Shown piece by piece: positions 781 to 35,005 of a DNA stretch of 64,000 bases. A program made the position numbers and the translations under genes. This stretch comes from Schizochytrium sp. TIO01 (Eukaryota > Sar > Bigyra > Thraustochytrida > Thraustochytriidae): the NCBI GenBank assembly GCA_004764695.1, contig SMSO01000014.1, positions 3,795,148 to 3,859,147 on the forward strand, written 5' to 3'. How positions within the stretch are numbered: position 1 is the first letter of the stretch; each line of letters opens with the position of its first letter. The notes under the pieces are model-generated. The model was given only the letters and a program-made list of their open reading frames with translations. It was not told the origin of the DNA and ran no database searches.

Positions 781-1261
781 GTGACGATCTGAGTTCTAAA
801 ACCCTTTAGACAACAGAAGCGTCTACAAAGTCTCAAGCTTGGACCATATGAACTAGTGGTAAACCTTGGGCTTACGTGGCTGATTTCTAATGTTTAGAGG
901 TCCGCATGTGCTTCTAAGTAACGTTTAGCTGGTAGATAATGATTTGAGTTGTAGTACAAATGGTTTGGTACTAAGAAGAGATTTACTATTCTTTTACATA
1001 GCAAGTACCGCTAGGAGTCCTAACGTAAGGAGGGGTCGAAAAGGACCGTTGAAATGATCCATCAAGTCAGAGTGTCTTTCAGATAAGGGAACTTGACCAC
1101 AAGTGTGGCAACTATCATTGAAATACCTATGGATAACAGCCCTACCATGACACGTAGAGCGATAGACAGCATATTGCTTAACAATGAATACATACATTAC
1201 CATGAATTGGTAGCACATGTGCTAGTAATGAACCACAGCAATTCATTTTCGGTGTACAAGA
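781..1261. other. Divergent intergenic region
   Basis: This is the shared upstream region of the leftward DZIP1-like gene and the rightward channel gene, presumably holding both promoters. No convincing TATA box or repeat is seen. A 36-codon hydrophobic micro-ORF on the minus strand (1172-1062) is the only frame of note and is probably chance. Confidence 0.5.
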
Positions 1262-4200
1262 ATGGCATACGATGCTGAGGGCGAGCGATATGGATGTAAA
1301 ACAACACCGCAATCTATAACAAAAGTACAACGAAGTCGACCGTCGCAGGGCAGGCGCGCTTGTGCAGGGTTGTATATCAAACGACAGCTTAACTTCGAGA
1401 AGACAGCCAGCGAAAGGAATAGCAGTCTGAGAGGTTTTGCCAAAACTAGAACGACGCAGCTTAGCACATGCTCCAAGACGATGAGCATGGGTAGCCTCAT
1501 TGAGAAGGGTTTGCATGATAAAGTTTCCAAGAATGCTGAGAAAGGATATTCATCAAATCTTGTTTTAATTAGACTCTTAAATGTCCCTTTTGATGGAAAA
1601 GGACATCAAGCAAGAGCGAGGCGCCGCATTTTAGTCAACCCGCGTGTCTCTGTGTTCTACATAATAAATATTATAGCAAGTCTGATTTACTGCTGCTCAG
1701 GAATTGAAACGTATGGGGCAGCATGCCATCATCTAACAGGGAATCAAAGCGAGTGTTTCTGCGAGAGTCTTAGGGACACTGATTCGCGCATGGGCCTGAG
1801 TGATCTTTCAATTACTTTAGAAGACACCCAGAATTTGACTTGGCCATCCACATACTTCGGCAAACAAGAAAGTCTCTACCTTGTTGGAGATTACATTTAT
1901 TACGCAACTCATGATTCTGAAAGTGGGCGCACGGTGTTTGAAATCTGTCTAGACGGATATGGAGACATCAATTTTGTTTCTGCAAGAACACAAATTAAAA
2001 GTAGAGAAGGCCATTGGCCAATTGGTCCCTTCAAGAGCCGCAAAGACCTCTCATACGCTTATTTGGATGTAGACTCTGATTCACTCAAAGTTCAGAGGTG
2101 GTTTCGTTTGTGGGATCTTCTTGAAACATTTGCTGTTGACCAAAATTCCTGGACCAAAGATTCTTACGATAGAGATATAGTGTTACTCCGGCAATCTATA
2201 TCAAACCCTAGTATCCAAAACATATTTACTATACGCGGAGACGAAACGACAGTTACTCGCCAACCACGCTTCAGCAAGTATCTATTCAAAATTCTTAATG
2301 AAACAATTGATGATGCTGTTGTGTCACAGCCAGCCATAGCTGGTCGATATGTGATATACAATCAGGCGCATTCTGAGACAGGTAGAGTCTACACAATGCT
2401 TCATGACCTTGAAACAGGCTACATTCAAGCTTTAGGGGGGGAGTCACTGATGTCTCATACAAAAAATCAGTATCATGCACGAATCGTCCGCCAAGGAAAC
2501 GCCAATTCAGATATCTACTTCTCAGCATGGATTGAGGCTTCAAATGCAAGTTTGTCTCTTGACCGAGGCATTCTAATCAGCGAAGAGGATGCGGTACTAT
2601 TTTTAATGCAGCTCCCAGAATGCAGAAAACTTAAAATTTCTGCGCAAGATCTTGCCTCTGAGACTATTCAAGTAGGCTCTATATATTTATGGAATTATAT
2701 TCTGACGTCGTCGCGGATATTTTTCCATGTCTGTACAACAGAGATATATACCTCAGAGACGGTATGTCAAATAAGGACCTGTAATTTAGGCTCATGTGTT
2801 TCTTCAATGAAAATAGCTTTGACAACAAATTCTGGTCAACATGTTCGATTCCAAGATGCTTCTTCAGAATATCTTTTATACTTTCTCGGAAGCGAAATGC
2901 ATGCTATCGTTGACTCTCACAACGCTCCAATAGGAGAGGTGCCTCAACACGGATGCAAGTTTTCAAATAGCACGGTAAACTCAAACCTCGTTGCCACAAC
3001 TCTTTACCATGACATGGTACTGCTCCTCTACCAGGACGGCAAGCTTTATACTTTTGACTTGGACAAAGATAATGACGAAGTTATTGACGTGTATGACATG
3101 TTCCCTTACGACGGAACTGAGGCTTTTGACTCCGATAATGACGGCATTGGAGATTCGCATGATATTCTTAACTTTACATCCCACGCATGTGCTTCGTCTC
3201 AAGAACTTCGTGCTTGTCTTAGCGACAATGTAGTTTTGTATCTTTGCTTTTCGTTCTGCTACATTATTCTTTGCACGCTATGCCTTAGAATTGTGTTTGC
3301 CACGTGGAATTACCTTGAGCATATATCTCAAACAATTCATTATGAGGTCTTTGTAAGACATCAAGAAGAAATGATAAAAGAGACCGCAGATCGTGCCGAA
3401 GCCGCTTTGAAGCAAGAGAGCGATAGGCACAAGGCCAAAGCGAACGACCGTCTTAAACGAGTTGATACATTATCCTCTGTTGCGGCATCGTTGAGTACAA
3501 AAGGAAATGCAATGGCTGCTACACAGCAGGCAATGGCTGGCATGCAATCCGCCCGCAGTGCTACGAGCAAAGGTGAAAGTAATATGAGCCTCGAGCCCTC
3601 GCGAGATATTTTAGTAAGGTATAGGCGCTCACCAGAGATGTTTGAATTGAAAGAAGTTGCTAATGATATCCTCCGAAATCAAGAGGACGCTGAAGCTCTT
3701 ATACCTATCTATATGCAAAAGTGTGCAGGCCTAGTCAGTCTGGTCATGAGAGATTCTCATAAATGGTCCATGATAGTTTCAGATTTGATGCGTGCTTTCC
3801 TTGATGTGTTGGCTGTCATCAGTGTTGTATTATCGTTCATTCCTTTATCTTATCAATTTGCATACCGCATGGACCCTGCATCACTAAACCTTCTTGTTCG
3901 ATTCCATTGGCTTGAGTGGACCATTTCTAGTATCTTTGTAGCACGTTTTTTTCTCAGTAGGAGACAACCGCTTATTGTGTCTCAACACTCCCCTTCACGT
4001 ACTGCCCTCTGGTGCGAAATTCTTGCTCTTATCACTGTCCCACCTGGAATTAAAGAATACATGAGTGACGCCTTTATGGTGACTCAGATATTGCGATGCC
4101 TCATCATTTTTCGAGTGTATCGTGCCTACTACAGAGCCTTCATGGAGCGCCGATTAGTCAACATTCTCATCAACTCTCCGGAGTACTTTCTAACCGTACT

Positions 4201-6292
4201 TATCCTGGGTTTCATGGTTGTGTGTGCTTTTGCGGTTGCCCAATTTGAATCTGAATCTGATCCGGAAGGTTTAGCAAACTTCAAAATCTCCTTGTGGTTC
4301 TCTGCTGTGACAATTACAACCGTTGGCTACGGTGACTATGCTCCTCTAACGCAGCTGGGTCGTACCCTCAGTATTTTCATGATGATATTTGGTGTTGGTC
4401 TCGTAGGTACAATATCTGGGTCTGTTGCCAAGGCCATTCAGACTGTGGGGTCAACAGAGGAGAAAGTAAAGCAACTAAAGGCTGACAATCGAATGCGATT
4501 TGAGCAATATAAAGACGTCTTTGATATCAGCTCGCTAACATACAACCCGGTCCTCATGTCGATTGCGCCTATATTCATACGCGGAGATTTACTCACGCGA
4601 GCCTTATCCGCAATGCACAAAGGTTCACCCGACCTCCCACGCTCACTCACGTCAATTGCGATGCGAATGAGCTCTACAAGTTCTGGGTCGGCGGTACATA
4701 GACCCCTATCCTCTTCAGGGTCTTCTGCTACGGCAAGTTCTACATTTTCGAGCAGATTTATGAACGGCACACAAGCTCCAAAACCAAAGCGAGCATTTTT
4801 CCCAATCAACCTGGGTGTTGCAGAGCTTGTCGCTGTGAATCCGCAGTGGAAGGATGAGACGTCATTGGCAGAAGCTGCTAGCCGAGTTCCTCCGAGGCGT
4901 CGTGCTACAGCGATGGATAAATTCATGGTCCACCTTGCTGATCGCAGCGGTTCGTGTCCACCAAAGGTTCGAGTTCTTCTTCTTCTACAGTCTTTTCAGC
5001 TTGATTCTCATCCAAAGGTACTCAACTTTGCAGAGTTTGCAAATTCTCTTTGTAAAATCATATTTGAACCACTTCGTCAGAACGATTCTGTTCTCGAGAG
5101 AAGCTTTGCTCTTGCAAGTGATGTAAAGCAACTACAGAAAGGCGCAAAATCTTCTCAACAGGCATTGCCAAACCTTGATAGATATAGTATTCGTGATCCA
5201 CTAGACCAGAAACTCGAAAAGATGGAGGAATTGCTATCAAGTCCTCAATATGGCCTGCTAAAAAGAGTAGACTTTGCTCTTCTCTTAAGCGAACTTACCC
5301 TAATAGTTCTGGAATATGAACGCCTGGAAATGTCTCAATGGGCTTTTCGAAATTTACGCCCCAAAGAGGGCGTTACTTTTCCTAGCCCAGAGCACATTTC
5401 GAAGGAGCTTTACAATGATGTGCAGCAATACATCTCCACCCTTGCAGACGAAGATCGACAAATGACACCTAATGAGTTTGTGGATCATCTTGAAGCTGAA
5501 GCAGGAGTACAAAAGCCTGGTGAACCTCAGAACAAACTTGCTATGCGAATTCGCCGAGCCCTTGAAAAGGTCAAGTCCGACAAAGATCTTCTCAATGGAG
5601 CAAGAGAATCTCAAACTAGGGACTCACAAACTGAAGGAGGTCAGCGTACCTCGAACTCAGGTGGAAATGTTCCGCAGTACAGACCCCCACAATCACGTCG
5701 TAGATCTGTACTCACGCGAATTCTTAACGTTAACCCTAACTCCCGAGAAGCGTCTGCTGCAGTTGCACCAGTACCCGAGGGTATCCAGATCAATGCTCTC
5801 AACACTCCAGATAACGCAATGTCTCCATTGCGACATATTGCAATGAATGCGCGCGCACGCATTGTCAGAAGATCGATTTTGGACGCGTCTGGAAATATGA
5901 GCTCCATGGTTGCAAACCTCGCCCTGAAACCAACTAACATTGCAGAGAATACAAGTGACATACTCAAAGAAGGTCAAAGGCCTAGTGTAAATCAACTTAA
6001 AGTTCTTCCGAGAGAGAAAGTGGAGCGAGAGATCGAAGAAAGTTCTCTGACAGAGTCTGAGGAAGAAGATGCAACCAATAGCACTCAGCACAGTCTTGAC
6101 ATCGCAATAGAAAGTAATAGTGCTTCTGACCTCTGTCTAGAGACGTTTCGGCAAGGGGGTGACCAGGAGTCCCATGGTGAAGATCAAAACAATGGCGATG
6201 CTAGCAGTGACGAAGGCCGCGTTGCCAATATTAATGTGGCTGCGGTACCGTTTACTACAAGTAATAAAGAGTCTGATGATTATGATAAATGA
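1262..6292 (+). CDS. Voltage-gated K+ channel-like protein with large TSP3-bearing ectodomain
   Basis: The product has 1676 residues. A hydrophobic segment at about 130-148 (signal anchor or signal peptide) is followed by a roughly 500-residue ectodomain with several N-glycosylation sequons. It ends in a thrombospondin type 3-like calcium motif near 598-632 (DKDNDEVIDVYDMFPYDG, then DSDNDGIGD). A single membrane span (about 655-683) and a coiled coil (about 693-740) lead to a six-helix channel core: S1 near 845, S2 near 877, an arginine-spaced S4 (ILRCLIIFRVYRAYYRAF), S5, a pore with the K+ filter TTVGYGD near 1018-1024, and S6. The tail of about 600 residues is basic to acidic and mostly low complexity. 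Family knowledge: TVGYGD marks K+-selective pores, and TSP3 repeats bind Ca2+ outside cells. Inferred: a plasma membrane or flagellar K+ channel with an extracellular Ca2+-binding sensor. Later Mets at 1481 or 1487 could be the true start, placing the hydrophobic segment nearer the N-terminus. Confidence 0.88.
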   Translation: MAYDAEGERYGCKTTPQSITKVQRSRPSQGRRACAGLYIKRQLNFEKTASERNSSLRGFAKTRTTQLSTCSKTMSMGSLIEKGLHDKVSKNAEKGYSSNLVLIRLLNVPFDGKGHQARARRRILVNPRVSVFYIINIIASLIYCCSGIETYGAACHHLTGNQSECFCESLRDTDSRMGLSDLSITLEDTQNLTWPSTYFGKQESLYLVGDYIYYATHDSESGRTVFEICLDGYGDINFVSARTQIKSREGHWPIGPFKSRKDLSYAYLDVDSDSLKVQRWFRLWDLLETFAVDQNSWTKDSYDRDIVLLRQSISNPSIQNIFTIRGDETTVTRQPRFSKYLFKILNETIDDAVVSQPAIAGRYVIYNQAHSETGRVYTMLHDLETGYIQALGGESLMSHTKNQYHARIVRQGNANSDIYFSAWIEASNASLSLDRGILISEEDAVLFLMQLPECRKLKISAQDLASETIQVGSIYLWNYILTSSRIFFHVCTTEIYTSETVCQIRTCNLGSCVSSMKIALTTNSGQHVRFQDASSEYLLYFLGSEMHAIVDSHNAPIGEVPQHGCKFSNSTVNSNLVATTLYHDMVLLLYQDGKLYTFDLDKDNDEVIDVYDMFPYDGTEAFDSDNDGIGDSHDILNFTSHACASSQELRACLSDNVVLYLCFSFCYIILCTLCLRIVFATWNYLEHISQTIHYEVFVRHQEEMIKETADRAEAALKQESDRHKAKANDRLKRVDTLSSVAASLSTKGNAMAATQQAMAGMQSARSATSKGESNMSLEPSRDILVRYRRSPEMFELKEVANDILRNQEDAEALIPIYMQKCAGLVSLVMRDSHKWSMIVSDLMRAFLDVLAVISVVLSFIPLSYQFAYRMDPASLNLLVRFHWLEWTISSIFVARFFLSRRQPLIVSQHSPSRTALWCEILALITVPPGIKEYMSDAFMVTQILRCLIIFRVYRAYYRAFMERRLVNILINSPEYFLTVLILGFMVVCAFAVAQFESESDPEGLANFKISLWFSAVTITTVGYGDYAPLTQLGRTLSIFMMIFGVGLVGTISGSVAKAIQTVGSTEEKVKQLKADNRMRFEQYKDVFDISSLTYNPVLMSIAPIFIRGDLLTRALSAMHKGSPDLPRSLTSIAMRMSSTSSGSAVHRPLSSSGSSATASSTFSSRFMNGTQAPKPKRAFFPINLGVAELVAVNPQWKDETSLAEAASRVPPRRRATAMDKFMVHLADRSGSCPPKVRVLLLLQSFQLDSHPKVLNFAEFANSLCKIIFEPLRQNDSVLERSFALASDVKQLQKGAKSSQQALPNLDRYSIRDPLDQKLEKMEELLSSPQYGLLKRVDFALLLSELTLIVLEYERLEMSQWAFRNLRPKEGVTFPSPEHISKELYNDVQQYISTLADEDRQMTPNEFVDHLEAEAGVQKPGEPQNKLAMRIRRALEKVKSDKDLLNGARESQTRDSQTEGGQRTSNSGGNVPQYRPPQSRRRSVLTRILNVNPNSREASAAVAPVPEGIQINALNTPDNAMSPLRHIAMNARARIVRRSILDASGNMSSMVANLALKPTNIAENTSDILKEGQRPSVNQLKVLPREKVEREIEESSLTESEEEDATNSTQHSLDIAIESNSASDLCLETFRQGGDQESHGEDQNNGDASSDEGRVANINVAAVPFTTSNKESDDYDK

Positions 6293-25137: not shown

Positions 25138-27777
25138 ATGTCGGTTCTGCCTGTGGACGTGGGTGGACGCGTGGAGGCATCCTCAAATTCCTTTGCGCCT
25201 GACGAGGAGGCCGAACGGCGAACTGCGCAACATATTTCTCATGATAGCGAGTTCTACCAATGTATGAACGCGAATGAAGACAACGAGAGCGGCGCGAGAA
25301 ATCAGGGGTTTACGAGACTCGAAGAGTCTCGACCTTCGAAGCCGTGGTGGGATTGGCTGCTTGGAGATGCACGCCGAGAATACCATGCGAGTATCAGCGC
25401 TGGTCGCCAGAAACCGCGATCTGCAGCAGCAAGCTTTTTTGGACACGGTGAAACTTGGAGGTCTGGGGGCTACTTTGGAGTCGCAAATAGCGAGCAAGGT
25501 CAAGGCCCAAATAGCAGAGACTTTGCTTATGAGGGAGAGGAGGATGAGGACCTTTGGGTGGCACAGAACAACTTGGACGACTTTTTTACAAGGGTGTACA
25601 GCTACTTCGTTGAGGGAGGCTTTGCATGCATTATTACAAAGGGTATTGTGAATGTAGTGACCTTAGGTTTTACAGTTGTGTTCTCAACCTTCCTGCTTGG
25701 ATTTGTAGACTGGGCTAAGCTTATGACATGCAAAGATGAAACCACATGTTTCGCTTTCGGAGAATACGTCACTACACTGGGCTCGCATTCCTCATGGGTC
25801 TTCAGAGCGTTTGTCGTACTCTACTGCGTCCTCTTCTCGTTGTACTGGACCTGGTCCGTGACATCATTTCTATCGAGTATCAAGCGCCACTGGGAGATTC
25901 GGTGCTTTTATGTGCGTCGCCTTGGCGTCACAACCCGACTTTTACAAACCATGGACTGGTCCGAGGTGGTAGATCGTATGATCCAAGTACAAGAACGTGG
26001 TGAATACCCCATTCAAATTAATGGTAGCAGCTTCACAGCCAAAGATGTGATTATGCGTATTATGCGACGTGAGAACTATATGATCGCCATGATGAGCGAG
26101 TCTGTCTTACCGGTGGGGACCAGCTTGTATGCTCGCGACTCATGGTTTCTTGGAAAAAATCTTGAACTCATGCTTGATTTAACCATATTAGAACCTCTTT
26201 TTGACGAACAGCACAATCTTCGTCGGCATGATCTAAACCCCAAGGCTTTGCAACGCCGATTTAAGTTCTTTGGATCGCTTTGCCTTCTTCTCGTACCATT
26301 CTCGATCGGCTTTATGTTCATATACTCATTTCTGAAATATGCAGAAGAGTTTCACTCTAAACGGAACTACCTTGGACCACGCACGTGGTCCCCCTTCGCG
26401 TTGTGGAAATTCCGCGAATTTAATGAAGTAAAGCACCTCTTCTCTCGTCGTACTGTTGCTTCAATGAAGCATGCTGACTTGTACATTCGACAGTTCCCTA
26501 CACCACTACCTACAGTGGTGGCTGGTGGCGTTTCATTTATTGTTGGCGCCTTTGTAGCCGTACTCATGCTTTTCACTCTCATGGATGAAAGTATTCTTCT
26601 TCACATTACTCTTGGTGGCCGTGATCTGGTGTGGTACATTGCAATTTTCTCGGGTGTCTTGGCGATCTCCCGCAGCCTTGTACCCCCTGCGGAGGAGTTA
26701 GTATTCAATCCAGATAAAGCAATGCGTCGTGTGGTCGCTTATACTCACTTTCTTCCCGACGCATGGCGATCGCGCACACATACTTATGATGTGCGTGATA
26801 ACTTCAGTGACTACTTCCAATATAAAGCGGTTCTTCTGTTGCGGGAGCTACTTGGTATCTTGACTACTCCTTACATATTGCTTGTTGTCCTTCCTCCGCG
26901 CGCTCAACTTATAAGCGAGTTTATCCAAGCCCGAACTGTTAGTGTTGATGGAATTGGAGAACTATGCATCTACTCGCTCATGGATCTTAGTGCCCATGGT
27001 GATCGTCGCTATGGCTCCGAAGGCAATCGTGTGGACACCGACCTTGGAAGATTTGTTAGGGTGGATGGTCATTCGGCTGTCCGAGCTGACGGAAAGCTTG
27101 AAAAATCATGGTTGAACTTTCGTCTGAGCTATCCCAACTGGCAAGACGACCAGGCTGTAGATCCTTCACTCGATGACCGACTTGCGGCTTTCCAGCGGGA
27201 AATGGTTAGCACCTCTCTTATGCGTTCACAGAAATTTGGAGATGAAGAAGACACCAGTCACTTTGCTTCTCCGCATCAAGCTGCAGGATTCGAGTCATTT
27301 AATCGTAGATCTCCAAGTTCATCATCTGTTTTGGACTCCTCACAGGAACTTCATGATCAACGCCATAGACTGTCGATGTCAGGTTCCTTCGCAGCCACAA
27401 CGGCTGCAATTGATCTTGACAGAAAACGTCGAGAACGTTTGCACTCACGCAACCAGGGAAATGATAGTGTCCACTCTCGAGCTTACAAGCCACTGTACAC
27501 AGCCGCAAGTACAACACGCCAGCTTGGAGAAACAGCTGACCATGATTATTTTGGTGCATCGGAAATGGCCATTCTTCCTCTTGACACTTTTCGTTATCCA
27601 AGCGCAGAAAACTACTTTTACTGGCTTGAAGAGTATCGAGATAACCTTGAAGAACCACAACCCCCCTTACCAGCTACCTCAATGCCACCTGAGGTACATG
27701 CGCAGCCAAATACAGAACGTGCACAAGCCGGCACGGCGGTCGAAATGACACAGTCATCATCAGTATCTAATAAGTAA
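25138..27777 (+). CDS. ATG9: Autophagy-related protein 9 (ATG9), lipid scramblase
   Basis: From the first ATG (25138) the product has 879 residues. The ATG9 core is clear: NLDDFFTRVYSYF before the first helix (about 144-156), membrane helices near 169-192, 219-244, 377-402 and 458-483, a re-entrant hydrophobic segment near 497-517, and the hallmark ILTTPYILLVVLPPRA with SEFIQARTVSVDGIGELC near 573-612. Known: ATG9 is a trimeric phospholipid scramblase on Golgi-derived vesicles that seeds and feeds the autophagosome together with ATG2. The N-terminus (about 1-140) and the C-terminal tail (about 650-879, Ser- and Gln-rich) are disordered, as is typical. The frame continues upstream of 25138 without an ATG, so a short 5' exon cannot be excluded. 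Confidence 0.93.
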   Translation: MSVLPVDVGGRVEASSNSFAPDEEAERRTAQHISHDSEFYQCMNANEDNESGARNQGFTRLEESRPSKPWWDWLLGDARREYHASISAGRQKPRSAAASFFGHGETWRSGGYFGVANSEQGQGPNSRDFAYEGEEDEDLWVAQNNLDDFFTRVYSYFVEGGFACIITKGIVNVVTLGFTVVFSTFLLGFVDWAKLMTCKDETTCFAFGEYVTTLGSHSSWVFRAFVVLYCVLFSLYWTWSVTSFLSSIKRHWEIRCFYVRRLGVTTRLLQTMDWSEVVDRMIQVQERGEYPIQINGSSFTAKDVIMRIMRRENYMIAMMSESVLPVGTSLYARDSWFLGKNLELMLDLTILEPLFDEQHNLRRHDLNPKALQRRFKFFGSLCLLLVPFSIGFMFIYSFLKYAEEFHSKRNYLGPRTWSPFALWKFREFNEVKHLFSRRTVASMKHADLYIRQFPTPLPTVVAGGVSFIVGAFVAVLMLFTLMDESILLHITLGGRDLVWYIAIFSGVLAISRSLVPPAEELVFNPDKAMRRVVAYTHFLPDAWRSRTHTYDVRDNFSDYFQYKAVLLLRELLGILTTPYILLVVLPPRAQLISEFIQARTVSVDGIGELCIYSLMDLSAHGDRRYGSEGNRVDTDLGRFVRVDGHSAVRADGKLEKSWLNFRLSYPNWQDDQAVDPSLDDRLAAFQREMVSTSLMRSQKFGDEEDTSHFASPHQAAGFESFNRRSPSSSSVLDSSQELHDQRHRLSMSGSFAATTAAIDLDRKRRERLHSRNQGNDSVHSRAYKPLYTAASTTRQLGETADHDYFGASEMAILPLDTFRYPSAENYFYWLEEYRDNLEEPQPPLPATSMPPEVHAQPNTERAQAGTAVEMTQSSSVSNK

Positions 27778-28099: not shown

Positions 28100-31000
28100 A
28101 TGGATCCTCCAAATAGTTCACCGACCAAGGCTGACAGCAACACAGAAGCACTGAATCTGGAACCTAATGAGCTCTCTTCTCAATCTTTACATATGGCATC
28201 ACTGAATACGAATAGCGATGAGCAAGCCGCACAAGTCGCCCTAAACAAGATTGACAATGAGAAGCACAATAGCGGTATGGGTAACATTGAGGCGGAAGCC
28301 AGAGATAACGTGGGAGACTGGAATGAAACTACTGATGGGATTAAAGGGATTCCTTTGGAAGAAAGCTCAGAATCGAATGGAGAAAAAGTCAGTGCCAATC
28401 TTTATCCAGATTCTTCTTTTTTACATGACTCCCTTTCAACTACATTCGAGAGCGGACAAACTTCTTCTACATCTCTCAAAGTCGGCGATGTTGTCGAGAT
28501 ACGTGTAAGCATAGATGCAGAATGGTGTGCAGGCAATGTTTGCGCCATTTATGAGGATGGATCTTACAGGGTTCAGTCTACCAATGGTGAATACGTAACT
28601 CAGAAAATTGGAGACTGTCTCAGACTTTGTCAAAGAGCATCTTCACAAGGAGATGTCGCCCCCATTGAAAATGACCTTCCTGAACGGGAAGTTAACTTAC
28701 TGAAAGCAGAGGGAAGCTCAATAGAAAAGTCATTAGACTTGTCTTTTGTTAAAGCAGAGCTCGTTCAAGGATCAAAGGTAAAAGTCAAGCACCCGAAGAC
28801 AGATCTTGATGCGCAAGCAACAATTGAGTGTGCGCATGAGGATGGCACCTTCGACATCATTTTCAATGATGAAGAAAGATTGACACATGTGTTAGCTGAT
28901 TCTATCAAATCGTTGTCACATCACGGTGCCAGTACTACTAACTTTTGCATAGGCGACCTTGTCGAATGTAATTTTGGAGGTGAAGGAAAGTGGTCCGCCG
29001 CCACAATATCTGAAGTGCACTCGGATGGGTCTTATGATCTAATATCTAATGACGGATATCGAGAGGACAACGTTCAATTAGTAAATATAAGACACAGTTT
29101 AGCAAAACAAGAGAGCTTAGATAGTGACGAATCATTTTGTCAAGGAGATAAAGTTGAGGCAAGATATTGTGGGGGAAAGAAATTTTATTCAGGTACAATT
29201 TCTAAGAGAAACCCCGATGGAACGTATGCAATTACTTACGATGATGGTGACATCGAGTCAATGGTTTCAAGAAACCTTATACGACGTCACGCTCTTAACA
29301 TTCGCACCAAAGATGTTGATACAGAAGTTCTTTGTGAAGGAACGACTATAGAGGGAAACTTTCTTGGCAAGGGTCGTTGGTTCCCCGCAAAAGTCTCTCG
29401 CGTTCGTGCAGACGGTACGTACGACATAGAGTATAACGATGGCGATATAGAAAAAGGAATCATTCGAGAACGGATCAAAGTTATAGGTTTACCAAGTCAA
29501 GTGTCTGTGACTAGCAACAATGACGAAGCAAGCAAACTTCATGAAGGAACCAAAGTTGAAGCTCAGTACAAAGGCCGTAGTAGATTTTATCCAGGCAAAA
29601 TCTCGAGAGCACGTTTGAATGGCACTTACGATATCGACTACGACGATGGAGAAAGGGAAACAGGCGTTGCGCGAGAACTGATCAGAGTGCCAGGCTCGTC
29701 AAGCATAGTGTCTGTGACAAGCAACAATGACGAAGTTAGCAAACTTCATGAAGGAACCAAAGTCGAAGCTCAGTACAGAGGCCGTAGTAGATTTTATCCA
29801 GGCAAAATCTCGAGAGCACGTTTGAATGGCACTTACGATATCGACTACGACGATGGAGAAAGGGAAACAGGCGTTGCGCGAGAACTGATCAGAGTGCCAG
29901 GCTCGTCAAGCATAGTGTCTGTGACAAGCAACAATGACGAAGTTAGCAAACTTCATGAAGGAACCAAAGTCGAAGCTCAGTACAGAGGCCGTAGTAGATT
30001 TTATCCAGGCAAAATCTCGAGAGCACGTTTGAATGGCACTTACGATATCGACTACGACGATGGAGAAAGGGAAACAGGCGTTGCACGAGAACTGATCAGA
30101 GTGCCAGGCTCGTCAAGTAATAGCCCTGAATCCAGCAATAAATTTGGTAAAAACAAAATTTGCAAGGGCACAAGGGTTGAAGCTCGATATAAGCATGGAA
30201 GCAAGTACTATGCAGGTGAAATATCTCGAGTACATTTGGATGGGACCTACGACATTCTCTATGACGATGGAGATAGAGAGAGACGAGTCGCTCGAGATTT
30301 GATTAGAACGATAGGTAGACCAAGAACCATATCTACTGACAGTGAAGGAAATAGCGGTACTTTCAGTGACAGTGACAGTGACAGTAACGAAGATGAAGAA
30401 GGTAGCTTCCAACAAGGAGATAGAATAGAAGCTCGATTCAATGGTGGCGGCAAGTACTATCCTGCGGTTATATCTCGAGTACATTTGGATGGTACTTACG
30501 ATATTAACTATGACGATGGTGACAAACAAAGGGGCGTGGAACGTAGCATGATTCGAATTGACAAAAAATCAACTTTGAATAAAGTTTATGACCAGCAAAA
30601 TTTCCAGGTTCTAGCCGAGGGTGTCCCGGTAGAAGCTCCGTGCAAAGATGAATCAAAACTTAAAAAAGGAATCATTGATCGTAGAAATGCTGACGATACA
30701 TACAATATCAGATTTGATGACGGTGAGTTTGAAGTTCGAGTTGACCAACAAAGTATTAAAGTCATTGCTCCTCAAACAGAGCAAAGTATAAATTTCGCAC
30801 AACGTAACGACGTTCAGAGATCGAATTTAAAATCAGACCAATCAGGTATTTTATCATTACCTTCAGAGAATTTAAGTATTGAACGATCTGGTTCCGAACG
30901 AGATTTATATTCGAAATATACCACGCAGGAACGCTCGCATCAAGCAAAGACACGGCAACGAGAAAGACTGAACAACGTGAAAATGAGAAACTGTCTGGAA

Positions 31001-34000
31001 CCAAGTTTGCGCAGTCGAACGTCAGACGAATCACGGGAGCGTTATAGTAGAGCAGATACAAGTAGAACGCGCAATCGAATCGCAGATAAAAGTAGAATGA
31101 GGAATCGAGTAGAGGACGACGGTTATATGTCAAAAACAGAAGCAGACGCTCAGTCTGCGAGAGAACAGGAAAATAGAGATGCAATCATGGAAAAATTAAA
31201 AACTCTTCATGTTGAGGACGCAGAAAACCTTCTCTACGCGTACTTATCTATGGATGAGAAATCATGTGAGCAAATCTTTAACCGCAAACTTGATTCTACG
31301 GAACAGGAACAGGAAAACACGGAGAAGCTCAACGGAAAGCATTCTGCCTTTGCTGCTCGAGACTATCCAGATCACATGACCATGCTCATGTATGCTGCAA
31401 AGAAAGGTCATCACAATGTTGTGAGATTTCTGGTCAGGCACGCAACCAACCCAGATGCTCGCTATAATTTAAAGGTAAATTTAAAGGAGGCAACACGGGG
31501 ATATTCAGCCTTAATGCTTGCAGTAGAGGGTGGACATGTTAAAATCGTCAATGAGCTGGTCAGATATCGGCTTCCTTTGGAAACTCTAAAAATCAATGAT
31601 CGTGCGTCTCCCTATGCTTTTATTCCTCAAATAAAACCCCGGGAAAAAGCTGAAAATAGAAGTGTTGCACAGACAATAACCTTGCAAAATCAAAATGAAA
31701 CTGCTTTGCATATCGCGTGTGCACTTCCAGAGGAGCAAGATGAGATTGTGAAGCTTCTTTGCTCTCACAAAGCACTCACAGACATTGCTGATGCTCGAGG
31801 CTTTACACCTCTCCACCATGCATGTATTAGAGGTCACGTTGCAATTGTAGAATATCTTCTTAATAAAGGTGCCAATGCAGCGATCAAAACCCATGAACAA
31901 GTAAGTCCGCTTCATTTGGCGGCCCAATACGGTCATGGACTTATTGTCAAACTACTCTTAGAGAAAATCTCGCTGCTTGTTGACACTGAAGATTGGAAAG
32001 GTCAGAGTGCCCTCCATCTCGCCTTTGAAAGATACTTCTACTTAAGTCGCCTTTGTTGGAATACAGTTAGTCTTTTCAAGGATCAGTTCAAAGATTTGTT
32101 TACAGAGGAGGATGCAACAGACGCCGACAGACCTGATCCATATTTAGAAGAGGGATTTTACTCTAGCCATATAGGAGGTGAAATGTCAAATCCTAAAGGT
32201 TCTGGCGATGAAATAGGTCTACAAGCGGGGATCATGATGACAAAGCCTACAAACAATAAAGATGAACAAACAGCCAAAGACCTATTATATCTTCTTGGGG
32301 ATCATGGAAATCCTCCACTTGTAGAGAAGAAAGAGATGAAGGAGGAGACCAACACCTGGAGGAATAACATTTTCCGAGAGGCTCGGCTCCCGGTTGGAAT
32401 CAACGATAAAATTCGTCCAATTTTCGAGAGAATGATTGCGTCAGGAGAACGTCTCTATGATTCTAGACCTCGGCCAGCCTCATGCAAGTTTATGGTAGAT
32501 ACCGGGGTCCCAGCGATGCTACTTAATCATTACCTCCCTCGGTTATGTGTTGAAGTTGCTAATCTACCGGACCAGGAGAAGGTGTTACGTGTAAAGAGTG
32601 CACTGGGGATTAAAAAACACACTGTCGATGTCAGCCGACTGTGCCGCCAAAGTGCTGAGACAGAAGAGATGCCTAATACTTATCCGTTTTATAAGCATGA
32701 GTCTGCAGATCTTCTGCTTTTCAGTGAACTTCAAAATCCCAACAACAAAGCAAAACTACGCGAGATTGGCAGCGCACGTGTATTCTCAATGAAGGCTCTT
32801 AGTGGCCTTGAGAACTTGGAGCAACTACTCTTTGCGATTGATAGCCAGAACTTACTGATTAAGTGCCTCCTCGATGCGGGTGCCGACATGAGCAAGGAGG
32901 ACAATCGTGGCACTCCAGCATTCACCAAGTATGCACAGGATAGTTGGTTCGATGCAAACGAACAAGAAATGCAACGAATTCGGGACTCGCCATCAGAAGC
33001 AGGTCATGATGCAGAAATATTCCTGGATAAACGAACGCAACATGCGGTGCATCAAGCATGGGTGTCAAATGGCCGCCGATGTTATGCGCTATGCTTGCTA
33101 TTCATGTGGATTGCTGGATTACTTCTCCTGACTTGGGTAGCCTTGAAATATAGTGGACGCGACTCTTACGAAGCCCCATCAATGCAGGCAGCGATCCGGG
33201 AACGCATTGGCAGCGATGAATGGGACGAATATGAAAGTAAGAGCCTAGAGGATGTTGGAAATATTGCAGAATGGCAGCAGTATCTCGAAAACGTTTTTGT
33301 AAGTTCTCTCTGGGAGACAAATCAGACGTACGTGGATGCTCAAGGACAAATCCGCAATGTCGGAAATCATGGGCCTCTTCTAAGTGGCCAGCTTGGCTTG
33401 GTTGGGCGGCCGAGATACCGTCAGCTTCGGACGCGGTCTGATGCGTGCTTGAACGAGAATCCTTCGATTATCCCTCAAACAGAGGATTTCTGCTTTTCTC
33501 CATACACGACGCGAGTATACGGGTCTCCTTTAATTTCTGATGAAGATCGTCGGGATCTTTTATGCACATTTAGTAATGGAACAGTCCTCCTGCTGGAATG
33601 GGCCGAGTATCAATCCTACCCAGTACAAGGTAGATATGGTTACTATAGAGATGGAGGCTTCAGCATTGATTTACCGTCAGACTATGAAGAGGCAATTTCG
33701 CTTCTTCATGATCTGGGTAATTGTAACTTCATTGACCTCAACACTCGCTTTGCTGCACTTGAGTTCACCTTGTATTCACGATCACAAGGTTTGTTCACAT
33801 ATGGAACAGTGTATCTTGAACTGACGACCACCGGTATGATTTCACCTGGGCAAAAGTGGCGAACTTTCAAAGTTGTTAGCTATGCGACGCACCAGGATCT
33901 CAAGGATATCTGGGCAGAGGTACTTCTTGGCGTTTTTCTTCTTTGTTATTTTGCTTCCGAAGTATGGAGTATGTTCCAGCCTTGGCCTGAGATGAGAGCT

Positions 34001-35005
34001 ACTAAATCATTGCGGGCATCTGATGGCATTATAAGCAATCAATTGGTGAGCTCTAAATACCCTGCCTTTTGGTATCCCTCGATGAGAGAGGTAAGGCATC
34101 ACGGCTGGGAAGATGAGAGCAATGCTCAAGACGCGATTTTGCTATTTCGATTCCGGAAAAATTGGCCTGTTTACCTTCGGAAGTCATCTTACATAATTCC
34201 ACCTTACCTTTATGATGGCTTCAACTTTGTCGATGTTTTCGTGATGGTCGTGGTGATGTCGCTCATTAGTACGCATTGTCTCTTAGTGGTCCAAGTCAAT
34301 GTAGCAGCTCCTTCGTGGTATGAGCTTGCAGCGTCAAACATGTATATTGACGTGTCTCATTTTCTCTGGTTGTCAGCTTGGCGACAGTATCTCTTGGCAA
34401 TTACAGTTTTTCTCTTTTATATAAAAACATTAGAGTACCTCCAGGTAGCTCCTTGGCTTACTATTCCCATTCTAGTGATTGGAGGAATGCTTTCTCGTCT
34501 CGCAGGTTTCTTTGCAATCTTTGCAGTTTTCATCATGGCATTTGGTTTATTCGATTATGTGCTGTATGGTATGGAGTATGAGCCTGTGCAGTCGGTGTGG
34601 CGTGGAATTCTCGGTGCATTCCGGGCTTCCTTAGGCGAGGTTGATTTTGACGGTAAGATTGAGACAGACCAAACTGTTGGCGTTGTTATGTCTCTTGCTG
34701 CTGCTTCGCTTCTAGTCATCCTCCTCCTCAATCTTCTTATTGCTATCATGAATGAGGCTTACGAGGAAATCAAGGAAACAGCTGAAGCTAGATGGTGTTA
34801 CAAACAATTTTCGGCCTACCTTGCTCATCAGCGTAGGGAGACGATGGGTTTTAAGTTTCAGCTTCCGTTTCGCTACCTACACAGGTTGTGCTGTACAAAG
34901 CAAAAGCTTCTCAAGTTCGATGTCGTTGTAGATGAAAATAGAACTGGTAAGATTACGGTTGTTGTTGGCAGAAATGGGCACGCACAAGTTGTCCCCGCGC
35001 CATAA
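28100..35005 (+). CDS. Polycystin-2 (TRPP)-type channel fused to Tudor-like and ankyrin repeats
   Basis: This single frame encodes 2301 residues. Residues about 128-890 hold eleven Tudor/Agenet-like units of roughly 50 residues with the consensus EGTKVEAxYxG...YPGxISR, then DGTYDIxYDDGD...V...LIR. A basic linker follows. Ankyrin repeats occupy about 1092-1313 (TPLHHACIRGHVAIVEYLL), with a degenerate one near 1570-1610. The rest is a complete polycystin channel: S1 (1658-1683), the extracellular polycystin domain (about 1700-1930, with GRPRYRQLRTRSDAC), S2 (1936-1958), S3 (2041-2064), S4, S5 (2131-2157), a pore with ASLGEVDFD, and S6 ending LLNLLIAIMNEAY. Known: TRPP channels conduct cations in cilia and ER, and the polycystin domain gates and assembles the tetramer. 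Tudor-like units bind methylated tails or act as scaffolds. Inferred: a flagellar or plasma membrane cation channel tethered by a huge cytosolic repeat arm. A short coiled C-terminus follows S6, with no EF hand. Confidence 0.9.
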   Translation: MDPPNSSPTKADSNTEALNLEPNELSSQSLHMASLNTNSDEQAAQVALNKIDNEKHNSGMGNIEAEARDNVGDWNETTDGIKGIPLEESSESNGEKVSANLYPDSSFLHDSLSTTFESGQTSSTSLKVGDVVEIRVSIDAEWCAGNVCAIYEDGSYRVQSTNGEYVTQKIGDCLRLCQRASSQGDVAPIENDLPEREVNLLKAEGSSIEKSLDLSFVKAELVQGSKVKVKHPKTDLDAQATIECAHEDGTFDIIFNDEERLTHVLADSIKSLSHHGASTTNFCIGDLVECNFGGEGKWSAATISEVHSDGSYDLISNDGYREDNVQLVNIRHSLAKQESLDSDESFCQGDKVEARYCGGKKFYSGTISKRNPDGTYAITYDDGDIESMVSRNLIRRHALNIRTKDVDTEVLCEGTTIEGNFLGKGRWFPAKVSRVRADGTYDIEYNDGDIEKGIIRERIKVIGLPSQVSVTSNNDEASKLHEGTKVEAQYKGRSRFYPGKISRARLNGTYDIDYDDGERETGVARELIRVPGSSSIVSVTSNNDEVSKLHEGTKVEAQYRGRSRFYPGKISRARLNGTYDIDYDDGERETGVARELIRVPGSSSIVSVTSNNDEVSKLHEGTKVEAQYRGRSRFYPGKISRARLNGTYDIDYDDGERETGVARELIRVPGSSSNSPESSNKFGKNKICKGTRVEARYKHGSKYYAGEISRVHLDGTYDILYDDGDRERRVARDLIRTIGRPRTISTDSEGNSGTFSDSDSDSNEDEEGSFQQGDRIEARFNGGGKYYPAVISRVHLDGTYDINYDDGDKQRGVERSMIRIDKKSTLNKVYDQQNFQVLAEGVPVEAPCKDESKLKKGIIDRRNADDTYNIRFDDGEFEVRVDQQSIKVIAPQTEQSINFAQRNDVQRSNLKSDQSGILSLPSENLSIERSGSERDLYSKYTTQERSHQAKTRQRERLNNVKMRNCLEPSLRSRTSDESRERYSRADTSRTRNRIADKSRMRNRVEDDGYMSKTEADAQSAREQENRDAIMEKLKTLHVEDAENLLYAYLSMDEKSCEQIFNRKLDSTEQEQENTEKLNGKHSAFAARDYPDHMTMLMYAAKKGHHNVVRFLVRHATNPDARYNLKVNLKEATRGYSALMLAVEGGHVKIVNELVRYRLPLETLKINDRASPYAFIPQIKPREKAENRSVAQTITLQNQNETALHIACALPEEQDEIVKLLCSHKALTDIADARGFTPLHHACIRGHVAIVEYLLNKGANAAIKTHEQVSPLHLAAQYGHGLIVKLLLEKISLLVDTEDWKGQSALHLAFERYFYLSRLCWNTVSLFKDQFKDLFTEEDATDADRPDPYLEEGFYSSHIGGEMSNPKGSGDEIGLQAGIMMTKPTNNKDEQTAKDLLYLLGDHGNPPLVEKKEMKEETNTWRNNIFREARLPVGINDKIRPIFERMIASGERLYDSRPRPASCKFMVDTGVPAMLLNHYLPRLCVEVANLPDQEKVLRVKSALGIKKHTVDVSRLCRQSAETEEMPNTYPFYKHESADLLLFSELQNPNNKAKLREIGSARVFSMKALSGLENLEQLLFAIDSQNLLIKCLLDAGADMSKEDNRGTPAFTKYAQDSWFDANEQEMQRIRDSPSEAGHDAEIFLDKRTQHAVHQAWVSNGRRCYALCLLFMWIAGLLLLTWVALKYSGRDSYEAPSMQAAIRERIGSDEWDEYESKSLEDVGNIAEWQQYLENVFVSSLWETNQTYVDAQGQIRNVGNHGPLLSGQLGLVGRPRYRQLRTRSDACLNENPSIIPQTEDFCFSPYTTRVYGSPLISDEDRRDLLCTFSNGTVLLLEWAEYQSYPVQGRYGYYRDGGFSIDLPSDYEEAISLLHDLGNCNFIDLNTRFAALEFTLYSRSQGLFTYGTVYLELTTTGMISPGQKWRTFKVVSYATHQDLKDIWAEVLLGVFLLCYFASEVWSMFQPWPEMRATKSLRASDGIISNQLVSSKYPAFWYPSMREVRHHGWEDESNAQDAILLFRFRKNWPVYLRKSSYIIPPYLYDGFNFVDVFVMVVVMSLISTHCLLVVQVNVAAPSWYELAASNMYIDVSHFLWLSAWRQYLLAITVFLFYIKTLEYLQVAPWLTIPILVIGGMLSRLAGFFAIFAVFIMAFGLFDYVLYGMEYEPVQSVWRGILGAFRASLGEVDFDGKIETDQTVGVVMSLAAASLLVILLLNLLIAIMNEAYEEIKETAEARWCYKQFSAYLAHQRRETMGFKFQLPFRYLHRLCCTKQKLLKFDVVVDENRTGKITVVVGRNGHAQVVPAP
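29501..30117. repeat. Three near-identical 207-bp coding tandem repeats
   Basis: Anchors recur exactly 207 bases apart: GTGTCTGTGAC at 29501, 29708 and 29915, and ATGAAGGAACCAAAG at 29541, 29748 and 29955. Each copy encodes 69 residues, one whole Tudor-like unit plus its linker. Copies 2 and 3 differ at very few bases, synonymous sites included, while the flanking units are strongly diverged. This shows recent duplication or gene conversion inside the channel gene. Confidence 0.95.

Follow-up and report, generated by a model that had tools for sequence, protein, structure and literature searches.

A thraustochytrid gene encoding Tudor-like repeats, ankyrin repeats and a polycystin-type channel in one reading frame

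Closest described systems

The channels that most resemble the product of the gene described here are the TRPP channels PKD2 and PKD2L1, with which it shares a polycystin extracellular domain, six hydrophobic segments and a PKD_channel pore, but it differs from them in its selectivity filter and C-terminal tail, and in the addition of N-terminal ankyrin repeats and eleven Tudor modules. An ankyrin array at the N-terminus is a feature of the TRP channel TRPN/NompC, in which there are about 29 ankyrins but no polycystin domain and no Tudor repeats, both of which are present here. The oomycete PKDRR proteins are likewise protist PKD channels with lineage-specific extra domains (PMC7399828, PMC4820453), although these are RyR domains rather than Tudor and the PKDRR filters are LGA or AG(D/E). 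The tandem Tudors of SGF29, PHF20, 53BP1 and Agenet proteins, whose fold the repeats are predicted to share, are found in soluble, chromatin-linked proteins with few modules, rather than as eleven modules on a channel. The methyl-lysine cage of SGF29 is formed by Y238, Y245, F264 and D266 (PMC4589357), and Chlamydomonas PKD2 is cleaved into N- and C-terminal fragments (PMC10846610).

Oomycetes thus already provide examples of PKD channels bearing extra domains, whereas the Tudor array on a TRPP channel appears to be new: in the literature searched, which took in few of the subscription journals, we found no account of a TRP channel with Tudor repeats, in line with the earlier note, which knew of no channel with this domain order. 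Nor was a TRPP channel with ankyrin repeats noticed among the matches listed, and the main text of a proteome paper on A. limacinum zoospores mentions neither polycystin, TRP, ankyrin nor Tudor (PMC12221091). A tblastn search found no relatives of the channel in viral_contigs or genome_contigs, which hold viral and prokaryotic records and are uninformative on eukaryotic conservation. This would be the first channel known to us with Tudor-fold modules attached, and it places domains of the methyl-reader type in a membrane-linked and presumably cytosolic setting.

Gene and domain architecture

The gene lies in a window of 64,000 nucleotides (the whole stretch of DNA that was analysed) and encodes, in a single frame, eleven Tudor-like repeats followed by ankyrin repeats and a TRPP/polycystin-type channel (Table 1). 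This three-part architecture, including the order in which the earlier note had placed the parts, is well supported by the Pfam matches, a repeat profile and a structure model. A stop codon in the same frame is situated 30 nt before Met1, which is flanked by A and G at positions -3 and +4, and a stop-free run of 2301 codons is expected by chance with a probability of about 10^-63 at the local base composition. The single frame that had been proposed is confirmed: it shows positive codon bias in each of the complete windows of 100 codons, with an alternative frame scoring about equally at residues 701-800 and 901-1000. An ATG9 gene is located upstream and ends at 27777; downstream there are a frame with a weak Tim17 match (below cut-off) and, on the opposite strand, a Na+/H+ exchanger gene. 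The window contains a second channel gene, a 1686-residue frame at 1232-6289 with Ion_trans/Ion_trans_2 matches.

Table 1. Coordinates of the gene and its parts in the window, and locations of related arrays in the same genome
Feature	Location	Strand	Evidence
Single open reading frame, 2301 aa, ATG to stop	28100..35005	+	ORF reading, codon bias
Eleven predicted Tudor-fold repeats (aa 125-892)	28472..30775	+	Profile search, structure model
Repeats 4-10, each with three aromatics and Asp at SGF29-type cage positions	29132..30571	+	Alignment to Sgf29
Two near-identical repeat units, 205/207 in DNA	29534..29947	+	207-bp units compared
Low-complexity charged linker (aa 893-1090), R/S/E-rich	30776..31369	+	Composition, paralog alignment
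Ankyrin repeats, about six units by eye (aa 1091-1330)	31370..32089	+	Pfam, paralog alignment
S1 hydrophobic segment (aa 1664-1682)	33089..33145	+	Hydrophobicity
Polycystin (TOP) extracellular domain (aa 1719-1925), GRPRYRQLR motif	33254..33874	+	Pfam, PDB alignment
PKD_channel domain (aa 2034-2224), S3-S6 and pore	34199..34771	+	Pfam, PDB alignment, hydrophobicity
Selectivity-filter position, LGE	34631..34639	+	Alignment to paralog and PKD2L1
Related array with SAM	contig C33
Related arrays with EF-hand	contigs C31, C3, C24:3.58M, C5, C30
Additional domains in EF-hand arrays	C3, PUB; C24:3.58M, SAM
Related array with TBCC	contig C32

The Polycystin_dom (E 1.8e-15) and PKD_channel (E 1.3e-16) matches are both above the Pfam cut-offs. 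The polycystin domain sits between S1 and S2 (which begin at residues 1664 and 1941), hydrophobic segments occupy the S1-S6 positions, and among PDB sequences the channel part matches PKD2L1 and PKD2 best, with an alignment that spans both the polycystin domain and the pore. Judged by these sequence comparisons, on which the assignment rests because a single-sequence AlphaFold model was poor (pLDDT 39) and was set aside, the channel part is a TRPP (polycystin)-type channel. It departs from TRPN and TRPA, in which ankyrins accompany a pore without a polycystin domain, in that this domain is present and the pore is nearest to PKD2L1 and PKD2, and from PKDRR, which has two RyR domains, in that the protein has no RyR match (Pfam, E up to 1). 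The earlier description of a complete polycystin-2 is apt for the pore part but does not extend to the C-terminal tail of about 85 residues, which has no match to the EF-hand of a strict PKD2 orthologue (Pfam, E up to 1), nor to the filter triplet, LGE here but LGD in PKD2L1. By analogy with the family the channel would assemble as a tetramer, and it presumably conducts cations, including Ca2+. The ankyrin motifs reported earlier correspond to an Ank_2 match (E 2.7e-33).

The Tudor-like array and its relatives in the genome

A profile built solely from repeats of other genes in the same genome recovers all eleven repeats that the earlier note had counted, with scores of 12.6 to 75.6 bits compared with a top score of 4.7 bits among 500 shuffles; repeat 1 is the weakest (12.6 bits), and repeats 1, 2, 3 and 11 are degenerate units. 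Pfam matches in this part include Tudor_5, SGF29_Tudor, Agenet and others. Repeats 4-5 were modelled by AlphaFold with a window-only alignment as two five-stranded barrels (pLDDT 76.9), whose relative orientation is unreliable (pTM 0.41). Tudor/Agenet-class domains lead the list of structural matches to this model (Z up to 9.6), in which related barrels (PWWP and the MRG2 chromodomain) are represented by a few structures, and the fit to the SGF29-H3K4me2 complex has a Z of 9.0 and 1.8 A over 57 residues. The model thus predicts barrels like those of solved Tudor domains, and the Tudor-like character proposed earlier withstands this structural check. The G-box of CPAP/Sas-4 was considered as the identity of the repeats and rejected, its profile matches being weak (E 3e-4 to 0.02) and Tudor leading the structural comparison. 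The two nearly identical units reflect either a recent tandem duplication or an assembly expansion.

The cage aromatics fall at repeat columns 12, 19 and 36 in an alignment to Sgf29, and the Asp was set at column 38 from the human +2 spacing; in human SGF29, the loop that joins the second aromatic to the third is longer by two residues. All four columns are kept in 7/11 repeats, namely 4-10, and the full pattern is absent from repeats 1, 2, 3 and 11; across the arrays of the genome it is present in 68/98 repeats. Methyl-reading by the array, one of the roles suggested in the earlier note, is therefore possible as far as the sequence goes, but the cage columns may also serve the fold, and their conservation alone is no demonstration of methyl binding.

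The same genome encodes a second ankyrin-polycystin protein (P0002, contig C24, G000:C24), which is 1514 residues long and has no Tudor repeats. The two proteins share 48% identity over the channel part (residues 1528-2245 of the window protein), and the paralog has an LGD filter and a longer C-terminal tail. Homology is detectable from about residue 1124 onward and no clear counterpart of the linker (residues 893-1090) was found in the paralog, such that the array and linker constitute the differing part. This shows that ankyrin and polycystin are the common base of both paralogs and that what varies is the Tudor array, either added or lost. The paralog offers a natural control for the contribution of the array.

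At least six further genes contain similar Tudor-like arrays, most of them together with EF-hands (the ORFs L031-L036 being covered in part). Genome-wide match positions place no SET, PHD or Ion_trans match inside the frames of these arrays, and no PKD_channel match elsewhere in the genome lies inside an array frame; the gene described here is the only one found in the genome to link a Tudor array to a channel. A Tudor-like array and an EF-hand share one frame in at least five genes (on C31, C3, C24, C5 and C30), and this family seems expanded. The array on C33 (L030, 4201-7629) contains three 368-residue frames of equal length, 1161 bp apart, forming a nested higher-order tandem repeat.

Possible roles of the array

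A plausible scenario, to which we give about an even chance, is that the gene product is a subunit of a TRPP cation channel with a very large cytosolic N-terminus, in which the Tudor array would act as a multivalent docking scaffold for cytosolic partner proteins and so tether the channel to them. In a tetramer, four ankyrin stacks and as many as 44 Tudor modules would face the cytosol, with the ankyrin region linking the array to the pore; partners might be bound through methylated lysine or arginine, docking could anchor or cluster the channel at some structure of the cytoskeleton or the membrane, and a ligand might be linked to gating. The tethering is suggested by analogy with NompC and Chlamydomonas PKD2 (PMC10846610) and by the domain company of the related arrays, whose EF-hand, SAM, TBCC and PUB domains, rather than SET or PHD, fit the scaffold that the earlier note had proposed. 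As to the ciliary channel suggested in the earlier note, the genome contains IFT57, which makes cilia plausible.

Several other readings have to be weighed against the docking scaffold. The modules could be largely inert repeats that were expanded by unequal exchange and have little functional effect, as might be suspected from the pair of almost identical units, from block duplication in other arrays too, and from a paralog that manages without an array; this seems unlikely, in that the cage and core columns are kept although the repeats diverge elsewhere. The same conserved cage (PMC4589357), its prevalence in the other arrays of the genome and the fit to the SGF29 complex would suit a true methyl-lysine or methyl-arginine reader whose methylated ligand controls the position or gating of the channel. 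We consider this unlikely, since the cage residues are necessary yet insufficient, reading by SGF29 requires the H3A1 pocket in addition, and an array on a membrane protein would encounter histones only in unusual settings. We are more doubtful still that the cytosolic array reads methylated proteins, with the location of the channel or the timing of its opening set by protein methylation.

The remaining alternatives concern whether the Tudor and channel parts belong together. A Tudor protein and an ankyrin-polycystin channel could be separate products of an internal start, an in-frame intron or proteolysis, and the array-less paralog, the context of Met1030 (A at -3, G at +4) and the splitting of Chlamydomonas PKD2 into two fragments (PMC10846610) are consistent with this. 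However, the frame is unbroken, Met1 closely follows an in-frame stop and has the same context, and the codon bias of the frame persists on both sides of the linker, if weakly at residues 901-1000, so two products appear quite improbable. An assembly error at the Tudor-channel join is very improbable indeed: near-identical repeats may mislead assemblers, but those seen here are within the Tudor part and away from its boundary with the ankyrins, and the frame is intact across 6.9 kb.

Among the other PKD_channel proteins of the genome, we note two (L042, 1448-4642, and L045, 1421-4423) that each contain two DEP-domain stretches, itself an unusual architecture.
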